Shown: in pieces, positions 4,678 to 24,679 of the stretch
Layout: each line of letters begins with the position of its first letter
How positions within the stretch are numbered: position 1 is the first letter of the stretch
DNA from: a virus
Strand: one strand, 5' to 3'
IMG/VR virus record: IMGVR_UViG_3300028615_000018
Location: 1-44,877 of that record
DNA: 44,877 nt
The notes under the pieces: model-generated
What the model was told of the DNA's origin: nothing
Database searches by the model: none
Seen by the model: the letters and a program-made list of their open reading frames with translations, nothing else
Made by a program: the position numbers and the translations under genes

Positions 4678-5247
4678 ATGCCACGAGCAATAGACCTGAT
4701 AGAAAAATACTGGCCCTGCCTTACGGCAGTAAAATGGCTAGGTGATATGGCAGCAGAGGAGGCTTGGGAGACATGCGAACGCGGAGACTGGATGCTGTGG
4801 ACACTACAGCGGAGACACGTAGACATACAGAAGCTCACTTTGGCTAAAGTCCGGTGCGCCAGATTGGTCGAGCATCTTATGATAGACGAGCGGAGCATCA
4901 AGGCTTTGCAGGTAGCAGAGGCATTTGCGGCGGGCGAAGCTACAAGAGAGGAGTTGGAGATTGCCGCTGATGCTGCTGCTGATGCTACTGCTGATGCTGA
5001 TGCTGCTGATTATGTTGCTGCTTATGTTGCTTATGTTGCTGCTGCCGCTGACGTTGCTGCTGATGCTGCTGACGTTGCTGCTGATGCTGCTGACGTTGCC
5101 GCTGATGCTGCTGACGTTGCCGCTGATGTTGCTGCTGCTGATGCTGCTGTTAGTCATGCTGCTTACAGAGCTACTAGGCAGGACGTACTGCGCCAGGCTG
5201 CGGACATCGTCAGAGAGGTCATTGCCTTTGGGGACCTTGGCCTGTAA
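4678..5247 (+). CDS. Ala/Asp-repeat protein, Imm5-like putative immunity family
   Basis: A 189-residue protein. Residues 1-95 contain a W-L-G-D...AWE.CERGDWMLW arrangement seen in the putative immunity protein (Imm5-like) family, found widely in bacteria and phages. Residues about 96-160 are an (A)A-D-V-A-A-D-A repeat, and the C-terminal part is helical. The repeat would form a long Ala-rich helix. A strong GAGGAGG precedes the ATG. Whether it acts as an immunity or anti-host factor is not shown. The repeat DNA could change in copy number. Confidence 0.6.
   Translation: MPRAIDLIEKYWPCLTAVKWLGDMAAEEAWETCERGDWMLWTLQRRHVDIQKLTLAKVRCARLVEHLMIDERSIKALQVAEAFAAGEATREELEIAADAAADATADADAADYVAAYVAYVAAAADVAADAADVAADAADVAADAADVAADVAAADAAVSHAAYRATRQDVLRQAADIVREVIAFGDLGL
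4963..5160 (+). repeat. Degenerate GCTGAY trinucleotide/hexanucleotide tract
   Basis: About 200 bases of tandem GCT-GAT/GAC/GTT codons inside the preceding gene. An 18-base unit (GCTGCTGATGCTGCTGAC-type) is repeated with few changes at about 5050-5125. This is a typical substrate for replication slippage. Confidence 0.85.
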
Positions 5248-5503: not shown

Positions 5504-5580
5504 GCCCCTGGGAGGTAAATGGATAGCCCATCGATCTTCTAAATCGATCTGTGCAGGTTCGAATCCTGCCGGGGGCACCA
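5504..5580 (+). tRNA. tRNA-Arg (anticodon TCT)
   Basis: A cloverleaf can be folded: acceptor GCCCCTG with CGGGGGC (one G-T pair), anticodon stem TCGAT/ATCGA with loop CTTCTAA (anticodon TCT), T arm GCAGG-TTCGAAT-CCTGC, discriminator A and encoded CCA. The D arm is weak, with one mismatched pair. It reads AGA (and AGG by wobble), codons that appear frequent in the phage genes. Confidence 0.9.
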
Positions 5581-5584
5581 ATGG

Positions 5585-5661
5585 GGGCCCGTAGCTCAAT
5601 TGGTTAGAGCAGTCGACTCATAATCGATTAGTCGAAGGTTCAAGTCTTTCTGGGCCCACCA
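5585..5661 (+). tRNA. tRNA with CAT anticodon, probably Ile2 (reads AUA)
   Basis: Acceptor GGGCCCG/TGGGCCC, D arm GCTC/GAGC, anticodon stem GTCGA/TCGAT with loop CTCATAA, T arm GAAGG-TTCAAGT-CTTTC, encoded CCA. The anticodon arm and following region closely resemble E. coli ileX as I recall it, so after lysidine modification by host TilS it would decode AUA as Ile. Elongator Met is the alternative. AUA codons appear common in the phage genes. Confidence 0.85.
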
Positions 5662-5679: not shown

Positions 5680-6285
5680 ATGCTAGCAGTTCCTAAATTT
5701 ATAAATAAATACAAAAATGTTGTGTTCGATTGGGAAACCAACGGTCTCCTACATGAAGTAACTCAGTGCTGGTGCATGACGGCTTATGACTTAGACACTG
5801 ATGAATACTTTACTTTTTCTCAACTAACAGGCCCAAAAGAATCTTGGCATGAAGACGCGCTAGATCTTTTGGAGAATGCTAAGCTGCACAGCAGCCACAA
5901 CGGGTATGGTTTTGACTACCCTCTAATGGAAATGATGTATGGTGCAGAATGGTCAATGAAGCCCGATATGTTCAGGGGTAACACTAAGCTGGAGATATAT
6001 GACACTTATATACTTAGCCAAATGGCTGATCCCGAAAGAGAAGATTGCAATGCTGTTCAAATTAACAAAGACACTGGTGAGAAGAAGAGAGTAGGTAAGC
6101 ATAGCGTAGAATCATATGGTTATCAGTTTGGTGTCCTCAAGAAGTATATCCAATACTGGGACAAGTTTAGTGGGGACATTATTGATAGGTGTGAGGGTGA
6201 CGTAGCAATACAAGCCAGGGTGCACAAGTATTTGATGAAAAAGCTGCACAGGCAAGCGGAGATGTTAAATGATAAGACCGCCTAA
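5680..6285 (+). CDS. DNA polymerase, 3'-5' exonuclease subunit (T7 gp5 N-terminal half)
   Basis: A 201-residue protein aligning with the N-terminal proofreading domain of T7 DNA polymerase. Exo I is D17-x-E19 (FDWET), Exo II is HNGYGFD with D79, and a third Asp is D173 (CEGDVAIQ); all metal ligands look present. It ends where T7 gp5 passes from exonuclease to polymerase, and the next gene starts 17 bases before its stop in the +1 frame. The two products probably associate as one enzyme. It starts after the tRNA pair with AGAGG upstream. Confidence 0.9.
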   Translation: MLAVPKFINKYKNVVFDWETNGLLHEVTQCWCMTAYDLDTDEYFTFSQLTGPKESWHEDALDLLENAKLHSSHNGYGFDYPLMEMMYGAEWSMKPDMFRGNTKLEIYDTYILSQMADPEREDCNAVQINKDTGEKKRVGKHSVESYGYQFGVLKKYIQYWDKFSGDIIDRCEGDVAIQARVHKYLMKKLHRQAEMLNDKTA

Positions 6286-7942
6286 ACAATTAGCAAAAGC
6301 TGTAGCCCTTGAGCATCGGTTGGCTAGTATTATCGGCCTGCAAGAAAGAGACGGTGTTTGGCTAGACGAAGCGTTGGCTAATGACACAGTCAAGGAGATA
6401 AATGAAAAAGCAGATGAGATTGAAAAAGAACTAGAACCTATGCTACCTATGCAGATAGAGATGATGGACACTAAAGTAAAGGGCGAGCAGTTTACTCATG
6501 GTGTTAAGAGGTGGAGTACAACAAAGGGGTTGTCTAAAACAACAAAAGAGTGGTTCGATCCCAACAAAGATGTAGTTGTAAAAGAGAGAGGCCAGAAAAG
6601 GAAGGACGGTACCAAGGCCAAAAGGACTTATGTATTCCCACCCTTTCCCTACGATGCTGAAGACATTGTGGAAGGGCCATATTGCAGGGTAGGTTGGTTT
6701 AAGTTGGAGTTAACCTCTGCTGGCCAAGTATCAGACTTTTTATTAAAAGAGGGGTGGGTGCCGACTGAGTACAACGTTAAAAAGGTCACTAAAAACGAAT
6801 CTAAAGATCCCGCCAGCCCTTATTATGGCCAAGTGGTTGGAAAAACTGCAAGGAATGACAAAGGCGAAGAGATATTCACTTCCCCTAAGTTGACAGAAGA
6901 CAGTTTTGACACCATCAAAGGGGATACAGGTAAGCTGATAGTGACACACAGAAGCCTGTTGGCCAGGAAGAAGTTTATCTCTGGTATGCTCCGGTCTGTC
7001 CGAGATGATGGAAGAATAAGCCAAGGTGCTGTCACAGTTGGTGCTGTAACAACAAGGGTGCAGCACAGGACGATTGTCAATACCCCAAGGGCATCCTCCT
7101 TCTATGGCAAGCCTTGTAGAGCTATTTTTTACGCTGAATATCCATATTTTAATTTCGGTGCAGACTTATCGGGCTTAGAAGATAGGATGAAAGCCCACTA
7201 TACATATAATTACCCTGGTGGTAAAGAATACGCACAGAAGATCCTGGACCCTGACTTTTCTGTTCACGAAGAGAATATGGCTTTGTGGAATGTAGATAAA
7301 GAAACGGCTAAACCTGGGGCATACGCCTTGTCTTATAATTGTGGACCACCAAAGCTTGCTAAGACACTCGGTGTGTCACTAGAAGTAGGGCAGAAGTATT
7401 TTGATGCCTATTGGGAAAAGAATATGCCTCTTAAGCTATTCAATGATGAGGTTGTGGAATTGTTTAAGGCGCGTAAGGCTGTTCACGGCAAGGGGTATGT
7501 TGTTGGTATTGACGGAAGACTACTATTCCCCCGTAGTCCTCACTCAGCAAGCAACACACTGTTTCAATCAGCAGGTAATATTGTAGCAAAAACAGCGGTG
7601 TGCCTGATGCACGGGTGGAAACTAAAACATAATCTAGATGGATGGCAATGGTCATTCAATCACGATGAATACCAATGGTGTGTGCATGAGCAGCACATAG
7701 AAGGTTTTTATGAATTTGATGATGAGGAAGAAGCTATAGAATTTTGGAAAGCCAATAATACCCCGATGAAGTCCTACAGGTTTTCTAAGCCAAGCCCTGT
7801 AGATGGTAAATTTTGGGTTATAGAGAGCCCGGTATGCGATGCAATGATTAAAGCATTTTTATTGGCCGGGAGGAGGCACAAAATTAGGGTTCCCACAACC
7901 GGGGAGTGTATGGTTGGACGGAACTGGTCACATTGCCACTAA
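6269..7942 (+). CDS. DNA polymerase, polymerase subunit (T7 gp5 C-terminal part)
   Basis: A 557-residue family A polymerase. It begins at the T7 segment where the polymerase domain starts (AVALEHRLASI aligns with AVDIEHRAAWL) and ends like T7 gp5 (GRNWSHCH versus GPNWAICH). Motif A has D299 (GADLSGLE) and motif C has H465-D466-E467. The O helix is unusual: K344 replaces the normally invariant Arg (T7 R518), K348 and Y352 are kept (T7 K522, Y526), and N357 replaces Gly. The ATG lies inside the exonuclease gene. Together the two genes encode 758 residues, against 704 in T7. Confidence 0.92.
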   Translation: MIRPPKQLAKAVALEHRLASIIGLQERDGVWLDEALANDTVKEINEKADEIEKELEPMLPMQIEMMDTKVKGEQFTHGVKRWSTTKGLSKTTKEWFDPNKDVVVKERGQKRKDGTKAKRTYVFPPFPYDAEDIVEGPYCRVGWFKLELTSAGQVSDFLLKEGWVPTEYNVKKVTKNESKDPASPYYGQVVGKTARNDKGEEIFTSPKLTEDSFDTIKGDTGKLIVTHRSLLARKKFISGMLRSVRDDGRISQGAVTVGAVTTRVQHRTIVNTPRASSFYGKPCRAIFYAEYPYFNFGADLSGLEDRMKAHYTYNYPGGKEYAQKILDPDFSVHEENMALWNVDKETAKPGAYALSYNCGPPKLAKTLGVSLEVGQKYFDAYWEKNMPLKLFNDEVVELFKARKAVHGKGYVVGIDGRLLFPRSPHSASNTLFQSAGNIVAKTAVCLMHGWKLKHNLDGWQWSFNHDEYQWCVHEQHIEGFYEFDDEEEAIEFWKANNTPMKSYRFSKPSPVDGKFWVIESPVCDAMIKAFLLAGRRHKIRVPTTGECMVGRNWSHCH

Positions 7943-17397: not shown

Positions 17398-17964
17398 ATG
17401 TTTGAAGAAAGCTACTGTAACATGGTTAAACGATTGGCCAAGCCTGGAGAGGAGATATTAAAATCGTTAACATCTGAGAAGGTACATATGTGGCATATGG
17501 CTACAGGTATTTCAGGGGAGGCTGGAGAAATAGTAGAAGCTGTGGAAATAAACAGTACTCGGCCTATGTCAGAGATCATCAAACACTTGACTGAGGAGTT
17601 AGGAGACTTAACCTTTTATCTACATGGATTTTGTCAAGGGCTAGATCTCCCGGTGCCTAAAGGCAGGACATGGCCTTGCCAAAATCTGGGTAGATTAGCA
17701 ACAAATGTATCTGTTTCAGCTTCTAAATTATTAGATTACACTAAGAAGGCTTGTGTATACAATAAACATGTGGATATTGAACTCTTTTATGATCTCATTC
17801 AAGAGATAGCAGATTACATATCATGTATTTGTAGTATGATAAAAGTTATGGAACAAGATGTGCGGAGTCAAAACCAGTACAAATTGTCTGTTAAGCGTTA
17901 TCCTAGGGGTTATTCGGATAAGGCAGCTCAAGAAAGGGCGGATAAAGATGGAGAGCGAGCATGA
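17398..17964 (+). CDS. MazG-like nucleotide pyrophosphohydrolase (second)
   Basis: A 188-residue protein with the MazG signature E41-x2-E44 and E67-x2-D70, in the context GISGEAGEIVEA and TEELGDLTFYL. The C-terminal KRYPRGYSDKAA resembles the end of phage MazG-like proteins. It lies directly upstream of thyX with a 4-base overlap, placing it in dNTP synthesis; removing dUTP, non-canonical dNTPs or alarmones is possible. Confidence 0.78.
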   Translation: MFEESYCNMVKRLAKPGEEILKSLTSEKVHMWHMATGISGEAGEIVEAVEINSTRPMSEIIKHLTEELGDLTFYLHGFCQGLDLPVPKGRTWPCQNLGRLATNVSVSASKLLDYTKKACVYNKHVDIELFYDLIQEIADYISCICSMIKVMEQDVRSQNQYKLSVKRYPRGYSDKAAQERADKDGERA

Positions 17965-18920
17965 TGATAGAGGCTAAAATTATTGCACATAGCAGGTCTT
18001 CGATTGACGGCTCTGAGATAGTGACATTCGAGCTTACTTATCCAAGATTTATTCATTCTGAACTCCTCACTCATAGGGTATTTTCAAGGAATGCAGCATC
18101 TTCTCGGGCTATTCCAGTAGACAGAGTTATAGAACAGGTTGAAGCAGCACCCGCCTCTCCCGAGGCATGGGGTATTAACCAACCGGGTATGCAAGCAGAG
18201 AAAGAGCTTAAAGAGAAGTATAAGATTGCAACAGCAAAGTATGTTTGGCTGGAAGCTGCTAAGAGGGCTGCTCATAGTGCTAAAGAGTTAAAAGAACTAG
18301 GACTCCATAAGCAAATTGTAAACCGTGTCCTAGAGCCGTTTGTGCATATGCGAACAGTTATTACAACAACAGAGCTAGATAACTTTTTCTGGTTACGTTG
18401 TCACAAGGATGCCCAGCCTGAATTTAGACTGCTGGCCGAAGCAATGAGTGAACAATTGGATGCGTCCAAGCCAACAGTACTATCCATTGGTCATTGGCAT
18501 GTGCCTTACTATGAGGGCAACTATGGGAATGGTATCTGGAAACCATCTGGCTATGGCAAGTTCCTTGCTGACGGTAATGCTATCGAAACCGATCATAAGC
18601 GTGGCTACACTTTGCAAGAAGCTTTAAAAATATCTGCATCTTGTTGTGCCCAAGTAAGCTACCGTAAAAATGATAAAAGCGTAGAAAAGGCTGACAAAAT
18701 ATATGATAAATTGATCAGCAGCGACAGGCTACATGCCAGCCCATTTGAGCACCAAGCCACACCTATGCGACCTAACGCAGGGCATGGCGATGTTAATGAT
18801 AGTGGTGACGTGGATACATGGGAGCCTGGTATTACACACGTAAATAAAGAAGGCGAGTTTTGGAGTGGGAACTTCAAAGGATGGAGACAGCATAGACAAT
18901 TAATTAGCATAGAGACATAG
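17961..18920 (+). CDS. thyX: FAD-dependent thymidylate synthase ThyX
   Basis: A 319-residue flavoprotein making dTMP from dUMP with methylene-THF and NADPH. The ThyX motif is seen as T37-H-R-x2-S42-x-N44-x2-S47-x-R49, with Thr in place of the first Arg. The region LHKQIVNRVLEPFVHM and VSYRKND are typical. It is longer than short bacterial ThyX (about 220-250) but like other phage versions. An intact ThyX explains why the ThyA remnant at 23692 is dispensable. Confidence 0.9.
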   Translation: MMIEAKIIAHSRSSIDGSEIVTFELTYPRFIHSELLTHRVFSRNAASSRAIPVDRVIEQVEAAPASPEAWGINQPGMQAEKELKEKYKIATAKYVWLEAAKRAAHSAKELKELGLHKQIVNRVLEPFVHMRTVITTTELDNFFWLRCHKDAQPEFRLLAEAMSEQLDASKPTVLSIGHWHVPYYEGNYGNGIWKPSGYGKFLADGNAIETDHKRGYTLQEALKISASCCAQVSYRKNDKSVEKADKIYDKLISSDRLHASPFEHQATPMRPNAGHGDVNDSGDVDTWEPGITHVNKEGEFWSGNFKGWRQHRQLISIET

Positions 18921-18923
18921 GGT

Positions 18924-19289
18924 ATGAGTAACTTTAGTTTATCGTTCAGTGACCTTTTATTAGTAGACGGGTTTGCTGAACAATACGGAGCTGGTGGCAA
19001 TGAGGCTGTTTTATCCTTTTTGTACGCCTCTGGTATGGATGTAAGTCAGCCTATAGAGGCTATAGAAATACAACATAGAAACTTAAGGAATCAAGTCGTT
19101 AAGTGTATCCGGTACTGCGGGACAGAGCGTACAGACAAGGCTTGGATCAGATCTGGAGCAGCCTCACTAGACGCAATTATAGCTTCCAGCGACGACAAAG
19201 ACTTAAGAAGAGAGTTGAAAGAGATGTCAAAAGAAGTTCCATTTGATCAGGCTTTTAATGGCCCTTTTCATGAAAACCTAGGCGAGTGA
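18924..19289 (+). CDS. Hypothetical protein between thyX and nrdB
   Basis: A 121-residue acidic, mostly helical protein without a recognised domain. It contains IRYCGTERTDKAWIR. It lies 3 bases after thyX and 9 before nrdB, so is co-expressed with nucleotide genes. It does not have a glutaredoxin CxxC motif, so it is not the missing reductant. Confidence 0.6.
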   Translation: MSNFSLSFSDLLLVDGFAEQYGAGGNEAVLSFLYASGMDVSQPIEAIEIQHRNLRNQVVKCIRYCGTERTDKAWIRSGAASLDAIIASSDDKDLRRELKEMSKEVPFDQAFNGPFHENLGE

Positions 19290-19298
19290 GGAGAATAA

Positions 19299-20270
19299 AT
19301 GACAAAGCCAAGGCTTTTAACCAAAAAGTCTGAATATACTTTTGATTACCCGCAAGCACTGGATTTTGAAAATCAGCAACTTAGTATATTTTGGCTACCA
19401 GACGAGATAGAGGTAGAGAAAGATTTACACGACATAAAAACAAACTTCACAGAGGCGGAAGTCCACGGTGTTGTCACAGTATTGAAACTGTTCACATTGT
19501 ATGAACTACAAGCTGGAAACGAATACTGGGGAGGAAAGGTAAAAAGGAACTTTAACAGGCCAGACATTCAAAGAATGGCATCTTGTTTTTCTTTTTTTGA
19601 AGTAAATGTCCATGCACCTTTTTACAATAAACTTAATGAGGTTCTTGGATTAAACACGGATGAGTTTTATAGCAGCTACGTAAAAGACTCCGTACTAAAA
19701 GATAGGATGAATTGGATAGCGGAAATCATTAAAGACAAAAACATGCTAAGGTCTTTGGCTGCCTTTACATTTATTGAAGGGGCTGTATTGTACTCCAGCT
19801 TTGCATTCCTTAAGCATTTTCAAGCCGAGGGGAAGAACAAGCTTGTTAATGTTACCGCAGGTATAAACTTTTCCGTAAGGGATGAAAATCTTCACGCACA
19901 GGCAGGCGCTTGGTTATTTAGGGCGTTGTTAGAAGAAAGTAATCTTAGCAAACAAGAGAAACAACAACTCAAAGAAGAGATTATAAAGATAGCTACAAAG
20001 ACTTATGAACATGAAGCTAGGATTGTTGAAATGATATTTGAGAAAGGCAATATCATAGGTATTACCGCTAACCAATTAGATAACTTTGTGCAGAGCCGCG
20101 TTGATATATGTCTGGCAAATCTAGGCTATGACCCTGTATACAAGCCCACCTACAATCCGATAGGCAAGTGGTTTTATAAAAATATCAGTGGTGGCCAATT
20201 TACAGACTTCTTTCATAAGGTGGGGTCAGAGTACAACAGGATGTGGAAGGAGAAAAGCTTTATATGGTAA
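19299..20270 (+). CDS. nrdB: Class I ribonucleotide reductase small subunit
   Basis: A 323-residue ferritin-like R2 protein that would generate the radical for NrdA. Recognisable ligand regions are LYELQAG (E69), FFEVNVHAPFY (E101, H105, Y109), FIEGAVLYSSF and RDENLHAQAG. The Y109 position matches the radical Tyr. In this protein Glu and His of the second ligand motif are four apart (E-x3-H) rather than the usual E-x2-H. AGGAG precedes the ATG. The gene overlaps nrdA by 7 bases. Confidence 0.92.
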   Translation: MTKPRLLTKKSEYTFDYPQALDFENQQLSIFWLPDEIEVEKDLHDIKTNFTEAEVHGVVTVLKLFTLYELQAGNEYWGGKVKRNFNRPDIQRMASCFSFFEVNVHAPFYNKLNEVLGLNTDEFYSSYVKDSVLKDRMNWIAEIIKDKNMLRSLAAFTFIEGAVLYSSFAFLKHFQAEGKNKLVNVTAGINFSVRDENLHAQAGAWLFRALLEESNLSKQEKQQLKEEIIKIATKTYEHEARIVEMIFEKGNIIGITANQLDNFVQSRVDICLANLGYDPVYKPTYNPIGKWFYKNISGGQFTDFFHKVGSEYNRMWKEKSFIW

Positions 20271-21955
20271 TCAATGTATACAAAGAGTTGGGTAAAGAAA
20301 GAAGGCAAGGGCAAAAAGATGGAGATATACCTGAATGGTTTACCACGCTGTCTTGGCAGATGTTTAAGGAGAAATTTCAATATAAAAATGAAACTGTAAA
20401 AGAGACCTATCAGCGCATATCTAACTGTGCAGCCTCCTATACCGACAACCCTGACATGTGGGCGGAGAGGTTCTTTGACTTGATGTGGAAAGGATGGTTG
20501 GCTTGTTCAACACCTGTATTAGCAAATATGGGTACCGAGCGGGGTTGCTCTGTAAGCTGCTCTGGCGGATACATTGGAGACAGCGTATACCAGTTTTACG
20601 AAGGTATGCAAGAGTGCGCTGTCCTGTCTCAAAACGGATTCGGGACTAGTTCATACTTGGGCGATGTCAGGGAGAGGGGTGCCCCAATCTCAAGGGGAGG
20701 CACTGCGTCAGGCATACTCCCGGTGCTGCGAGGTTTTGTTCAAGTCGCCCGCGATATTTCCCAAGGAGGGGTTCGCAGGGGCGCTTGGGCCGGGTATGTC
20801 CCAATAGACCATACAGATTTCTGGGAGTGCGCCGAATACTTAAAAAACCACCCCGATGATTGTAATATTGGATGGTGCGTCCCTGGCAGTTTTATTGAAG
20901 CCCTCGAAGCTGGTAACGAGGATGCTGTAGCTCGCTACCAGAGGGCTATGAAAGTCAAAGTTCTCACTGGAAAGGGGTATTTCTTCTTTACAGACAAGGC
21001 TGAAAAACTCAGCCCCCCTATGTACAAAGAACTAGGATTGGAGGTTAAGGCCAGTAATTTGTGTTCCGAGATTATGTTGCATTCGGATCAAGACCACACA
21101 TTTTCTTGCGTCCTCTCCAGTATGAATCTAGCTAAGTGGGATGAATGGAAGGACACCATGGCTGTGTTTGACTCCATTGTATTTTTGGATTGCGTAGCTG
21201 AAGACCTAATCCATAAAGGAAAGAACATAAGGGGGTTGGAAAAGGTTGTACGGTTTACGGAAAAGTCCAGGGCGTTGGGGTTAGGGGCTCTGGGGTTTCA
21301 TACTTTACTGCAATCAAAAAACTTACCTATAGAGGGCTTGCAAGCTCAGTTTTTGAATACAGAAATATTCAAGCACATTAAGCAGGAGGCCGACAGAGCA
21401 ACAAGATGGATGGCGGAGATGTGGGGAGAACCAGAATGGTGCAAAGGCTATGGTGTTAGGAACTCTCACTGTTTAGCTGTTGCTCCTAATACAACATCCG
21501 CTTTGATATGTGGGTCAGTGTCTCAAGGTATAGAGCCTGTTTATAAAAACGTGTATACCCAAGGCAGCGCTGCTGGAGAAATGAATAGAATAAATCCATG
21601 TCTCGTACCCGTAATGAAAGACAAAGGTGTATATAACGATGATGTTATACAAGATATTTTAGATAACAAAGGGTCAGTGCAGCATGTTGACTGGCTTAGT
21701 GATGAAGAAAAGCTTGTATTCAAAACAGCATTTGAGATAAACCAAGAGGTGCTGGTTAGGTTGGCTAGCCAAAGGCAACAGTACATATGTCAAAGCCAGT
21801 CTTTGAATCTATTCTTTTCTGCTGACGAGAAGGAAGAGAGGATAAGCGAAGTACATAAACAAGCCTTTCTTGATCCATACATCAAATCATTGTATTATCT
21901 GAGGTCTGAAGCCGGGGTAAAGCCTAGTAGTGAATGCGAGGCTTGTTCAGGATGA
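20264..21955 (+). CDS. nrdA: Class I ribonucleotide reductase large subunit
   Basis: A 563-residue catalytic subunit reducing ribonucleotides. Active-site features: GCSVSCSGG (first redox Cys), NLCSEI (Asn, catalytic Cys, Glu), SCVLSSMNL (second redox Cys), SLYYLR (Tyr pair of the radical path) and C-terminal CEAC (tail Cys pair). The N-terminal ATP-cone is missing, as in many phage enzymes, so dATP feedback control is probably lost. ATG 20264 is chosen because AAGGAG precedes it and it overlaps the nrdB stop. Confidence 0.93.
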   Translation: MVINVYKELGKERRQGQKDGDIPEWFTTLSWQMFKEKFQYKNETVKETYQRISNCAASYTDNPDMWAERFFDLMWKGWLACSTPVLANMGTERGCSVSCSGGYIGDSVYQFYEGMQECAVLSQNGFGTSSYLGDVRERGAPISRGGTASGILPVLRGFVQVARDISQGGVRRGAWAGYVPIDHTDFWECAEYLKNHPDDCNIGWCVPGSFIEALEAGNEDAVARYQRAMKVKVLTGKGYFFFTDKAEKLSPPMYKELGLEVKASNLCSEIMLHSDQDHTFSCVLSSMNLAKWDEWKDTMAVFDSIVFLDCVAEDLIHKGKNIRGLEKVVRFTEKSRALGLGALGFHTLLQSKNLPIEGLQAQFLNTEIFKHIKQEADRATRWMAEMWGEPEWCKGYGVRNSHCLAVAPNTTSALICGSVSQGIEPVYKNVYTQGSAAGEMNRINPCLVPVMKDKGVYNDDVIQDILDNKGSVQHVDWLSDEEKLVFKTAFEINQEVLVRLASQRQQYICQSQSLNLFFSADEKEERISEVHKQAFLDPYIKSLYYLRSEAGVKPSSECEACSG

Positions 21956-22225: not shown

Positions 22226-23512
22226 ATGACCGAAGTAAAAAATGTAGTGGACACTGTTGTGAGCAACACCCCAAGTGTTGACCAGTTAGTATCAAGTATG
22301 GTTTCCAATGATGTATTCATGGGTTTCTTGGCACTGTCCTTGCTAGGGATGGCGGCCATGGGTATAAAGACCACTGCTAAACCTGTGTTTGAGTTTATTA
22401 AGAGACAAACAAGTGTTAAGCTGGAGATAACTAATAATGATGACGCATTTATATGGTTCTCCAAGTGGCTGGAGGACAGAGGTGCCACTAAGAAAATTAG
22501 GAGACTGAGAACCAGCAATTTATATGTAAAAGGAGAATGCCCAGTGGCCCTTGGCGAGGGCAGGCACTTCATGTTTATAAAGGGGCGACCTTATTTTATC
22601 TCCAAAACCATGGGAGATACTAAGAGCAAGGCAGTATTTGAACAATACACTGTTACTTACTTTGGACGCAGCAAAGAGCCCATTATGCGGCTACTAGGAG
22701 AGCTTCAAGATATGGTAAGAGGTGATGAAAGCTCTACAAGGGTGTTTAGCTGGGTGTCTAATGGCTGGGCTCTGGTGTCCAAGGATTGCAGCAGGAAAAT
22801 GGACACAGTGGTGTTGGACCCTAGCCAGAAGAGCGACATAGTAAGTGACTTAGGGTGGTTCATAGGTAACAAAGAGTGGTTTACAGAGAGAGGCGTCCCC
22901 TACCGAAGAGGTTACTTATTTTATGGCCCTCCTGGGACAGGGAAAAGCTCTTTAGTGTCCGCTTTAGCTAGTCATTTTAACAGAAACGTATACTCTATAA
23001 ACCTTAAATCGCTGTGCTCTGATTCTGAGCTTCAAGACGCCTTCTTTAGTGCCTCCAGAGAGGGAATAATCCTTCTGGAAGACATTGATTGCGTGGACGT
23101 TGTTGCTGCTAGGTCTAGCTCTCTTCGGCACCCTGTAGGGGCCAATAACAGCGCATTGGGGGAGGACAATGATAGCGACAAACCTCTCATTCCTATGGGG
23201 ATAACTTTGTCAGGGCTTCTCAATGTTATTGACGGAGTAGGGGCTTCGGAGGACAGAGTCATAATCATGACCACGAATAACCCTGATAATCTAGATAAGG
23301 CCCTTATGCGGCCAGGAAGAGTAGACAGGAAGTGGGAAATTGGCCTGCCAGACTGGCATGCTAGGAAAGAAATGTATATCAGGTTCTTTCCAGAAGATGA
23401 AGAAGGCAAGGCAGAGGCTATGGCCAACAAAACAGTGGACTACACTCCGGCAGAGATGCAATGCCTGTTCATGCAAAACATTAGCGGAGAAGATCAAAAT
23501 GCCAGTATTTAG
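22226..23512 (+). CDS. Bcs1-like AAA ATPase, membrane anchored
   Basis: A 428-residue protein laid out like mitochondrial Bcs1: an N-terminal transmembrane helix (about 30-47, VFMGFLALSLLGMAAMGI), a Bcs1-N-type middle domain (from DDAFIWFSKWLEDRG), and a C-terminal AAA module with Walker A GPPGTGKSS (234-242), Walker B ILLEDID (282-288), LSGLLNVIDGV, and IIMTTNNPDNLDKALMRPGRVD as sensor and Arg-finger region. Mitochondrial Bcs1 moves a folded Rieske protein across a membrane; phage and bacterial homologues have unknown roles. GGAG at 22213 sets the start. Confidence 0.85.
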   Translation: MTEVKNVVDTVVSNTPSVDQLVSSMVSNDVFMGFLALSLLGMAAMGIKTTAKPVFEFIKRQTSVKLEITNNDDAFIWFSKWLEDRGATKKIRRLRTSNLYVKGECPVALGEGRHFMFIKGRPYFISKTMGDTKSKAVFEQYTVTYFGRSKEPIMRLLGELQDMVRGDESSTRVFSWVSNGWALVSKDCSRKMDTVVLDPSQKSDIVSDLGWFIGNKEWFTERGVPYRRGYLFYGPPGTGKSSLVSALASHFNRNVYSINLKSLCSDSELQDAFFSASREGIILLEDIDCVDVVAARSSSLRHPVGANNSALGEDNDSDKPLIPMGITLSGLLNVIDGVGASEDRVIIMTTNNPDNLDKALMRPGRVDRKWEIGLPDWHARKEMYIRFFPEDEEGKAEAMANKTVDYTPAEMQCLFMQNISGEDQNASI

Positions 23513-23726
23513 AACAGGAAATATGTGGGAAGCATTGGCTAGGGTGGACTACTTTATAGTCACTACTAACGCCATTGTAAAGCAAAATGGTGCTGTTGTA
23601 ATGGGACGTGGGATAGCCAAAGAAATGCGAGACAAGTTTCCTGGTGTTGATAAGGCTATTGGTAAGGCCATACGAGAAAAAGGCCAAGACTATGGCCTTA
23701 TCCTTGGCAAGAAGGTTGGGGCATGA
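23499..23726 (+). pseudogene. Truncated macro-domain protein (N-terminal half)
   Basis: A 75-residue frame starting inside the end of the Bcs1-like gene. It matches the first half of phage macro (ADP-ribose-binding) domains: FRTGNMWEAL, DYFIVTTNAIVKQNGAVVMG and RGIAKEMRDKFPG, then DYGLIL. The family is normally about 140-150 residues. Here homology stops near 23707 and the frame closes at TGA 23724, next to ThyA-like sequence in another frame. The ligand-binding N-terminal loop is present but the C-terminal strands are missing, so a working fold is unlikely. Confidence 0.7.
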
Positions 23727-24273
23727 TGATCTTGGGTGTATATATGGCGTACAAGCCAGATGCTGGAGAACTGTAAACAACACAGCCTGCATAGATCAGC
23801 TACAAGGAGTTGTAGATAAACTAAAACAAGGGGTAGATGACCGACGTTTAATTGTTACGCATTGGAACCCAGGCGAGCTTAACATGATGTCTCTGCCACC
23901 ATGCCATTTATTGTACCAATTCGGCATTGAAAATGATAGACTGAACATGTCTATGTACCAAAGAAGCTGTGGCCTACCCTTGGGAGTCCCGTTCAACATC
24001 GCTGGGTATGCTTGGCTATTGAGTGTTGTGGCTCATATAACAGGATTTAAACCTGGAGTCTTTACACACTTCATGCACGACATACACATTTATGAGAATC
24101 AATTAAATGGTTTAGTGGAGCAATTGGAAAGAAAACCCTATCCTCTCCCTAGCCTTTACGTTAACTCCAAGATAAAGACCTTGGAAGATTTAGAAACTTG
24201 GGTTACACCGGATGATTTTGAGTTGATTAACTACGTCCACCACCCAGCTATTAATTATCCATTTGCTGTTTAA
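23692..24273 (+). pseudogene. thyA: Truncated thymidylate synthase ThyA (C-terminal two thirds)
   Basis: From about 23716 the +1 frame relative to the macro fragment is clear ThyA: DLGCIYGVQARCW, RRLIVTHWNPGEL, LPPCH with the catalytic Cys, YQRSCGLPLGVPFNIAGYAW, DIHIYENQL and HPAINYPFAV at the end. About 85 N-terminal residues of E. coli-length ThyA are absent, including the phosphate-binding Arg region. ATG 23692 is the nearest in-frame ATG but has no good ribosome binding site. The catalytic part is intact at sequence level, so decay seems recent. ThyX at 17961 can supply dTMP. Confidence 0.8.
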
Positions 24274-24286
24274 GGAGAAAAAAATT

Positions 24287-24679
24287 ATGGCTCTTATTAA
24301 CTCCTCTCCATTCTACACAACCCCTGAAGACATTCAAGGCGGGGAATTGGGGCACTATGGACGAGGTCCTTGCTTTAAGCCAGTAAAGACAAAACCCAAA
24401 AATATTACCATTTTGTACGACAATGGGAAGACATACACAACAACTTGCCTAGAGACATATGTTCCTAGTCCCTACGGAGTCAACAGAAACGTCCTTAAGT
24501 ACACCAGAGACAAGACTTTAAAAGGAGACAATGGTATTGTGTCGGAAGTGACGGAGAGGATTACAGTGCCGCTCTCAGACGTAGCTGCTGTTGTTGTAGA
24601 GGACAGAGAAACAAACACATACAAGGTTTTTAAATATAAGCCTTGTGCAAAAGTACATATCACTTTAAGCAAAACCTAA
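24287..24679 (+). CDS. Hypothetical protein
   Basis: A 130-residue, beta-rich looking protein (repeated Thr/Val strands, YKVFKYKP). ATG 24287 follows AAGGAGAAA 9 bases upstream, preferred to an in-frame start at 24263 inside the ThyA frame. No family recognised. Confidence 0.6.
   Translation: MALINSSPFYTTPEDIQGGELGHYGRGPCFKPVKTKPKNITILYDNGKTYTTTCLETYVPSPYGVNRNVLKYTRDKTLKGDNGIVSEVTERITVPLSDVAAVVVEDRETNTYKVFKYKPCAKVHITLSKT

Follow-up and report, generated by a model that had tools for sequence, protein, structure and literature searches.

Macrodomains encoded by phages are believed to act against ADP-ribose-based defence of the host (PMC9503650). In the DarG/TARG1 proteins, the catalytic lysine resides in a TKKHW/TKK stretch and loop 117-121 contacts ADP-ribose, and both K80A and G119E impair DarG (PMC5179494). 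As for the synthesis of dTMP, it is established that ThyA and ThyX replace each other by non-homologous exchange, with viruses being involved (PMC9931769; PMC9894754). Asp169 of Escherichia coli ThyA bonds N3 of the folate pteridine (PMC6514825).

The window, i.e., the whole stretch of DNA analysed here, is a phage contig of 44,877 bases (IMG/VR record IMGVR_UViG_3300028615_000018). On the + strand, thyX (17961) is followed by an ORF, nrdB, nrdA, a gene for a BCS1-like AAA ATPase, a macrodomain gene fragment (23499), a thyA fragment, and an ORF starting at 24287. A preliminary description made from the sequence had proposed that the first half of a macrodomain gene runs into the last two thirds of thyA in a different frame, with TGA TGA at the join. 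The ORFs and the relatives of both genes agree on this layout, and we regard the chimera as a real double pseudogene that is probably recent.

Two gene fragments on a phage contig

The macrodomain fragment (23499-23726, + strand) is a 75-codon frame that starts with ATG at 23499 and ends with TGA TGA at 23724-23729. It matches phrog_335 with an E-value of 9e-12, and its 75 residues are 61-68% identical to residues 1-75/77 of intact phage proteins of 146 amino acids. The match obtained by searching the window with one of these proteins (L003; tblastn, E-value of 2e-31) is far beyond chance. The intact relatives proceed from GNKVGA to FQVK, whereas the window reads GKKVGA followed by TGA TGA, and the missing C-terminus was found in none of the six frames of the window. 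Pfam recognized neither the fragment nor most of the intact relatives tested. On the other hand, a profile built from 12 relatives retrieved the DarG macrodomains of Mycobacterium tuberculosis (8e-15; 5m3i) and Thermus aquaticus (1e-12) and TARG1 (7e-8), and DarG and TARG1 were the best solved matches in Foldseek for the model of L003 (pLDDT of 93.5). By the profile and the predicted fold of its intact relatives, the family is DarG/TARG1-like. The same profile and fold place phrog_335 (L003, L020, and L021), which carries the name 'phosphatase', in the DarG/TARG1-like macrodomain family.

Lys81 of the phage family is invariant (12 of 12 sequences) and corresponds in the alignments to TKKHW/TKK of DarG/TARG1, and the PGIGNG loop aligns to the ADP-ribose loop 117-121 of DarG. 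Both the equivalent of the catalytic Lys80 of DarG and the Gly-rich loop lie beyond residue 75 and are missing from the window protein, which thus retains the N-terminal part of the pocket alone. Judging from these absences, the 75-residue peptide should be unable to hold and cleave ADP-ribose, in line with the loss of an ADP-ribose-binding protein proposed in the preliminary description. The peptide is nevertheless probably translated, given a GGAG directly ahead of its ATG and the overlap of this ATG with the last bases of the preceding gene. The macrodomain that was lost may have countered an ADP-ribose-based defence of the host.

The thyA fragment (23725-24273, + strand) corresponds to the C-terminal two thirds of the gene (about 182-183 amino acids plus the stop codon) and lacks the start codon and the N-terminal third. 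Read in the +1 frame from 23725, it begins with DDLGCIYGVQ and covers positions 87-266 of the 266 positions of Thymidylat_synt (PF00303) with an E-value of 2e-59, far beyond chance. The nearest intact ThyA sequences of the same group share 57-67% identity with the fragment, comprise roughly 275-310 residues, and begin approximately 100 residues earlier. The missing N-terminus was found in none of the six frames of the window, so that the complete fold of approximately 265 residues expected of a functional ThyA (EC 2.1.1.45) is not present. Near the join, the ThyA frame has no start codon preceded by a ribosome site; the only upstream start, GTG at 23644, resides inside the macrodomain gene and has no recognizable ribosome site. 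Altogether, the products of both gene parts should be dead, as far as their sequences tell.

The preliminary description regarded both parts as well conserved up to the join, including LPPCH of ThyA. The catalytic Cys is indeed retained in LPPCH, but some drift has already taken place. At 23737-23739 (+ strand), TGT encodes Cys instead of the Arg that is found in all 70 intact ThyA relatives (DDLG-R-IYG), and at 23971-23973 (+ strand) GGC encodes Gly instead of the Asp that is shared by the same 70 sequences and corresponds to the folate-binding Asp169 of E. coli (RSCD). Among the 70 intact relatives, 17 columns show no variation, and the window ThyA departs from them at two of these columns. 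Changes at columns invariant in all others were absent from 67 of the 70 intact sequences, while two of them bore one change and a single sequence (L146) bore two; as L146 is intact, the signal of decay in the window ThyA is modest. The two changes point to a constraint that was relaxed after the break. The ThyA frame contains no internal stop in 546 bases, where approximately 4.8% of random substitutions would create one, implying that the event is young rather than old. The recent date proposed beforehand is thus upheld in the sense of a fairly young event.

A modified ThyA was also seen in another phage (L102:2804-4420); the second half of this protein shares 70% identity with the window fragment. 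A single open frame of 539 codons encodes it, with a large in-frame insert of >200 residues shortly after DDLGRIYG that includes an I-HmuI/NUMOD-like homing endonuclease segment. The insert is an intein, an intron, or an in-frame insertion.

The junction and its origin

Aligning the relatives at the join placed the breakpoint in the interval 23716-23725 (+ strand), and the position given in the preliminary description (23707-23716) turned out to be approximately 9 bases too far to the left. The similarity to the macrodomain relatives extends to the codon GCA at 23721-23723, and that to ThyA starts at GAT at 23725 at the latest and at R-x-G-x-D-D (approximately 23713) at the earliest. As the ThyA R-x-G-x-DD is readable over the last macrodomain codons, the exact base of the join is uncertain. 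The ThyA frame is +1 relative to the macrodomain frame, and the latter has two stops at the join. The two parts meet without filler, as is the case for a deletion or for illegitimate recombination with little or no homology.

Two other explanations of the interrupted frame were considered and rejected. Recoding of TGA does not account for the layout, since the TGA codons are in the macrodomain frame and ThyA is in another frame, and reading TGA as a residue would leave the two unconnected. The inserts in thyA and nrdA relatives prompted us to consider an intron or intein at the join, but at this locus sequence is missing and not inserted. It has also to be asked whether a +1 ribosomal frameshift at GGG GCA TGA TGA yields a functional fusion of the N-terminal half of the macrodomain and the C-terminal part of ThyA. 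The ThyA frame is indeed +1 of the macrodomain frame and open across the join. Nevertheless, both halves are incomplete domains: the macrodomain part lacks Lys81 and the PGIGNG loop, and the ThyA part lacks its N-terminus and Asp169. Moreover, no relative with such a layout was found, and we regard a frameshift fusion as extremely improbable.

Upstream of the join, the gene of the BCS1-like AAA ATPase (22226-23512, + strand; PF00004 and PF08740) is intact and overlaps the start of the macrodomain fragment. Its match to PF08740 concerns the BCS1 N-terminal domain, and large phages of Brevundimonas and Caulobacter have proteins with approximately 32% identity to it. Downstream, an intact ORF with no function assigned (24287-24679, + strand) is preceded by a ribosome site and has no relatives in the phage or viral collections. 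The genes flanking the join keep a normal order. Neither the AAA ATPase gene nor the downstream ORF led to a close relative of this phage, and megablast against phages retrieved none. The window is a mosaic, in which the polymerase, ThyX, and RNR are nearest to those of Aeromonas phage 2L372X, Pakpunavirus, and a Vibrio phage, respectively.

Some features elsewhere in the window are recorded here. DNA polymerase I is split between two ORFs, for the exonuclease (5680-6285) and the polymerase (6269-7942), with an overlap of 17 bases, in contrast to the single ORF of 2,274 bases in Aeromonas phage 2L372X, and represents either split genes or a frameshift. A tandem repeat with a unit of approximately 12 or 21 bases (4966-5149) resides inside the ORF 4678-5247 and gives the tail of the encoded protein Ala/Asp/Val repeats. 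Two adjoining tRNA genes, Arg (tct) and Met (cat), are located at 5504-5661.

We propose, with a probability of roughly 0.8, that the chimera is a dead remnant of two genes generated by illegitimate recombination, most simply as a deletion in a lineage in which the macrodomain gene and thyA were in tandem. Recombination with short or no homology would have connected codon 75 of the macrodomain gene to about codon 100 of thyA; in the simplest form, very roughly 0.5 kb or more would have been deleted. The ThyA part would then receive little or no translation, and its loss may have been tolerated as ThyX supplies dTMP. The intact relatives of both halves run through the break, as expected for a dead remnant. 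On the contrary side stand the lack of a relative with adjacent macrodomain and thyA genes, the lack of a second contig with the join, and the ThyA frame that is still open.

As a deletion requires that the two genes were formerly neighbours and no relative displayed that order, the tandem ancestor and the deletion are what we infer. The comparison named beforehand, i.e., a search for relatives with adjacent full-length macrodomain and thyA genes, gave none among 58 viral loci and four loci from bacterial genome assemblies: no close thyA was found within 4 kb of the macrodomain gene in any of the 58 or beside it in any of the four. At one viral locus (L058), a distant match to ThyA (24%) was detected upstream, and nothing closer. 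Reciprocally, the macrodomain gene was found in none of the 25 records with the nearest thyA genes, in a search performed without a positive control. Of the deletion claimed in the preliminary description, the clean join of two broken genes is therefore seen, but the neighbouring genes it presupposes are seen in no relative.

That the adjacency occurs in no relative brings up the main rival, illegitimate recombination between two phage genomes, one contributing the macrodomain gene with the left flank and the other a partial thyA with the right flank, which needs neither a tandem ancestor nor a deletion. The mosaic nature of the window agrees with such an exchange. Conversely, two donors are needed, and neither part differs from the remainder of the window in GC or GC3 content, albeit this argument is weak as the pieces are short. 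We regard the two-phage origin as doubtful.

The join might also be an artefact, two phage genomes of the metagenome having been fused during assembly or amplification. In favour of this, the window is a single contig, and a degenerate pattern search for the join found no match in other viral contigs. Against it, no more than about ten bases at the join could be common to both parents, which is not enough for ordinary assembly to merge them. Moreover, an intact gene as the source of the ThyA half would not be expected to bring the two changes at invariant sites, which are evidence against a mere mis-joining of such a gene, and on either side of the join the genes continue in normal order, the ORF at 24287 being preceded by a ribosome site. 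Thus, we consider the artefact unlikely. The same pattern search bears on the fused layout as an arrangement inherited under purifying selection, which the preliminary description had named as one observation that would overturn its claim; no relative with it was found.

ThyX and the loss of thyA

The thyX-type gene (17961-18920, + strand) is full-length, and its 319-residue product matches phrog_85 (E-value of 8e-105) and Pfam Thy1 (59 bits) and is 55.6% identical to ThyX of Pakpunavirus. The frame is intact, as stated in the preliminary description, but the FAD motif is non-canonical. The canonical ThyX motif is RHRxxSxNExSxR, in which the role of RHR has been described (PMC6514825). The window reads THRVFSRNAASSR, i.e., THR..SRNAxSSR, a variant present also in Pakpunavirus YS35 and in L014. 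The ORF, nrdB, and nrdA follow at 18924-21955 (+ strand) in the order seen in Pseudomonas phage YS35; the order thyX-orf-nrdB-nrdA is common to the window and Pakpunavirus, with the small ORF being 42% identical. From its sequence, the window ThyX is the predicted source of dTMP. In a related thyX-nrdB-nrdA cassette, nrdA is interrupted by a Hint/intein-like insert (L014:8291-8805), and nrdA of L017 shows an interruption of roughly 0.9 kb.

ThyX was detected in none of the 25 records with the nearest ThyA sequences and ThyA in none of the 10 RNR/ThyX-type records, with each single absence being weak as many of the records are fragments. The former count makes the presence of both enzymes, one of them broken, in the window unusual, and the pattern agrees with the known ThyA/ThyX dichotomy. 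The coexistence on one contig of a broken thyA with an intact frame for ThyX, together with these counts and the established exchange, would fit a lineage in which ThyX came, thyA became redundant, and was then lost, as the preliminary description had it. We hold this displacement to be possible and advance it tentatively, since another direction fits equally well: the cassette is conserved with Pakpunavirus, so that thyX may have resided in the lineage for longer, with thyA arriving late in a ThyX phage and failing there. The activity of ThyX is a prediction as well. Close relatives, if found, would give the order of gain and loss.

A combined scenario, in which the ThyX cassette made ThyA dispensable and one recombination removed ThyA and a DarG-like anti-ADP-ribosylation gene together, is in our judgement somewhat unlikely. 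If it were true, the phage would have lost a possible counter to a DarT-type defence in the same event.

Comparison with known systems

Gene loss by illegitimate recombination is of a kind already known, and the window is a fresh example of it, an ordinary pseudogene chimera. It is of value in showing that two functions with no relation to each other, in this case those of a nucleotide enzyme and of a DarG-like macrodomain, can be lost through a single illegitimate join. It also provides a concrete phage genome in which ThyA and ThyX, of which usually one or the other is present, are seen in mid-change. Compared to the DarG/TARG1-like macrodomains (PDB 5m31, 5m3i, and 4j5r), the first 75 residues in the window resemble the intact phage members that match DarG/TARG1, but the peptide ends just before the strand of the catalytic lysine and lacks the second ADP-ribose loop. 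Compared to phage ThyA (PF00303, phrog_160), the fragment is up to 67% identical over the last 183 residues and retains LPPCH, but has neither the N-terminal third nor a start of its own, and Asp169 is replaced by Gly. The non-homologous displacement between ThyA and ThyX differs from the case here, known from one phage contig, in that either direction fits and ThyX is predicted from its sequence; the two are alike in that a broken ThyA lies alongside an intact ThyX frame in one genome.
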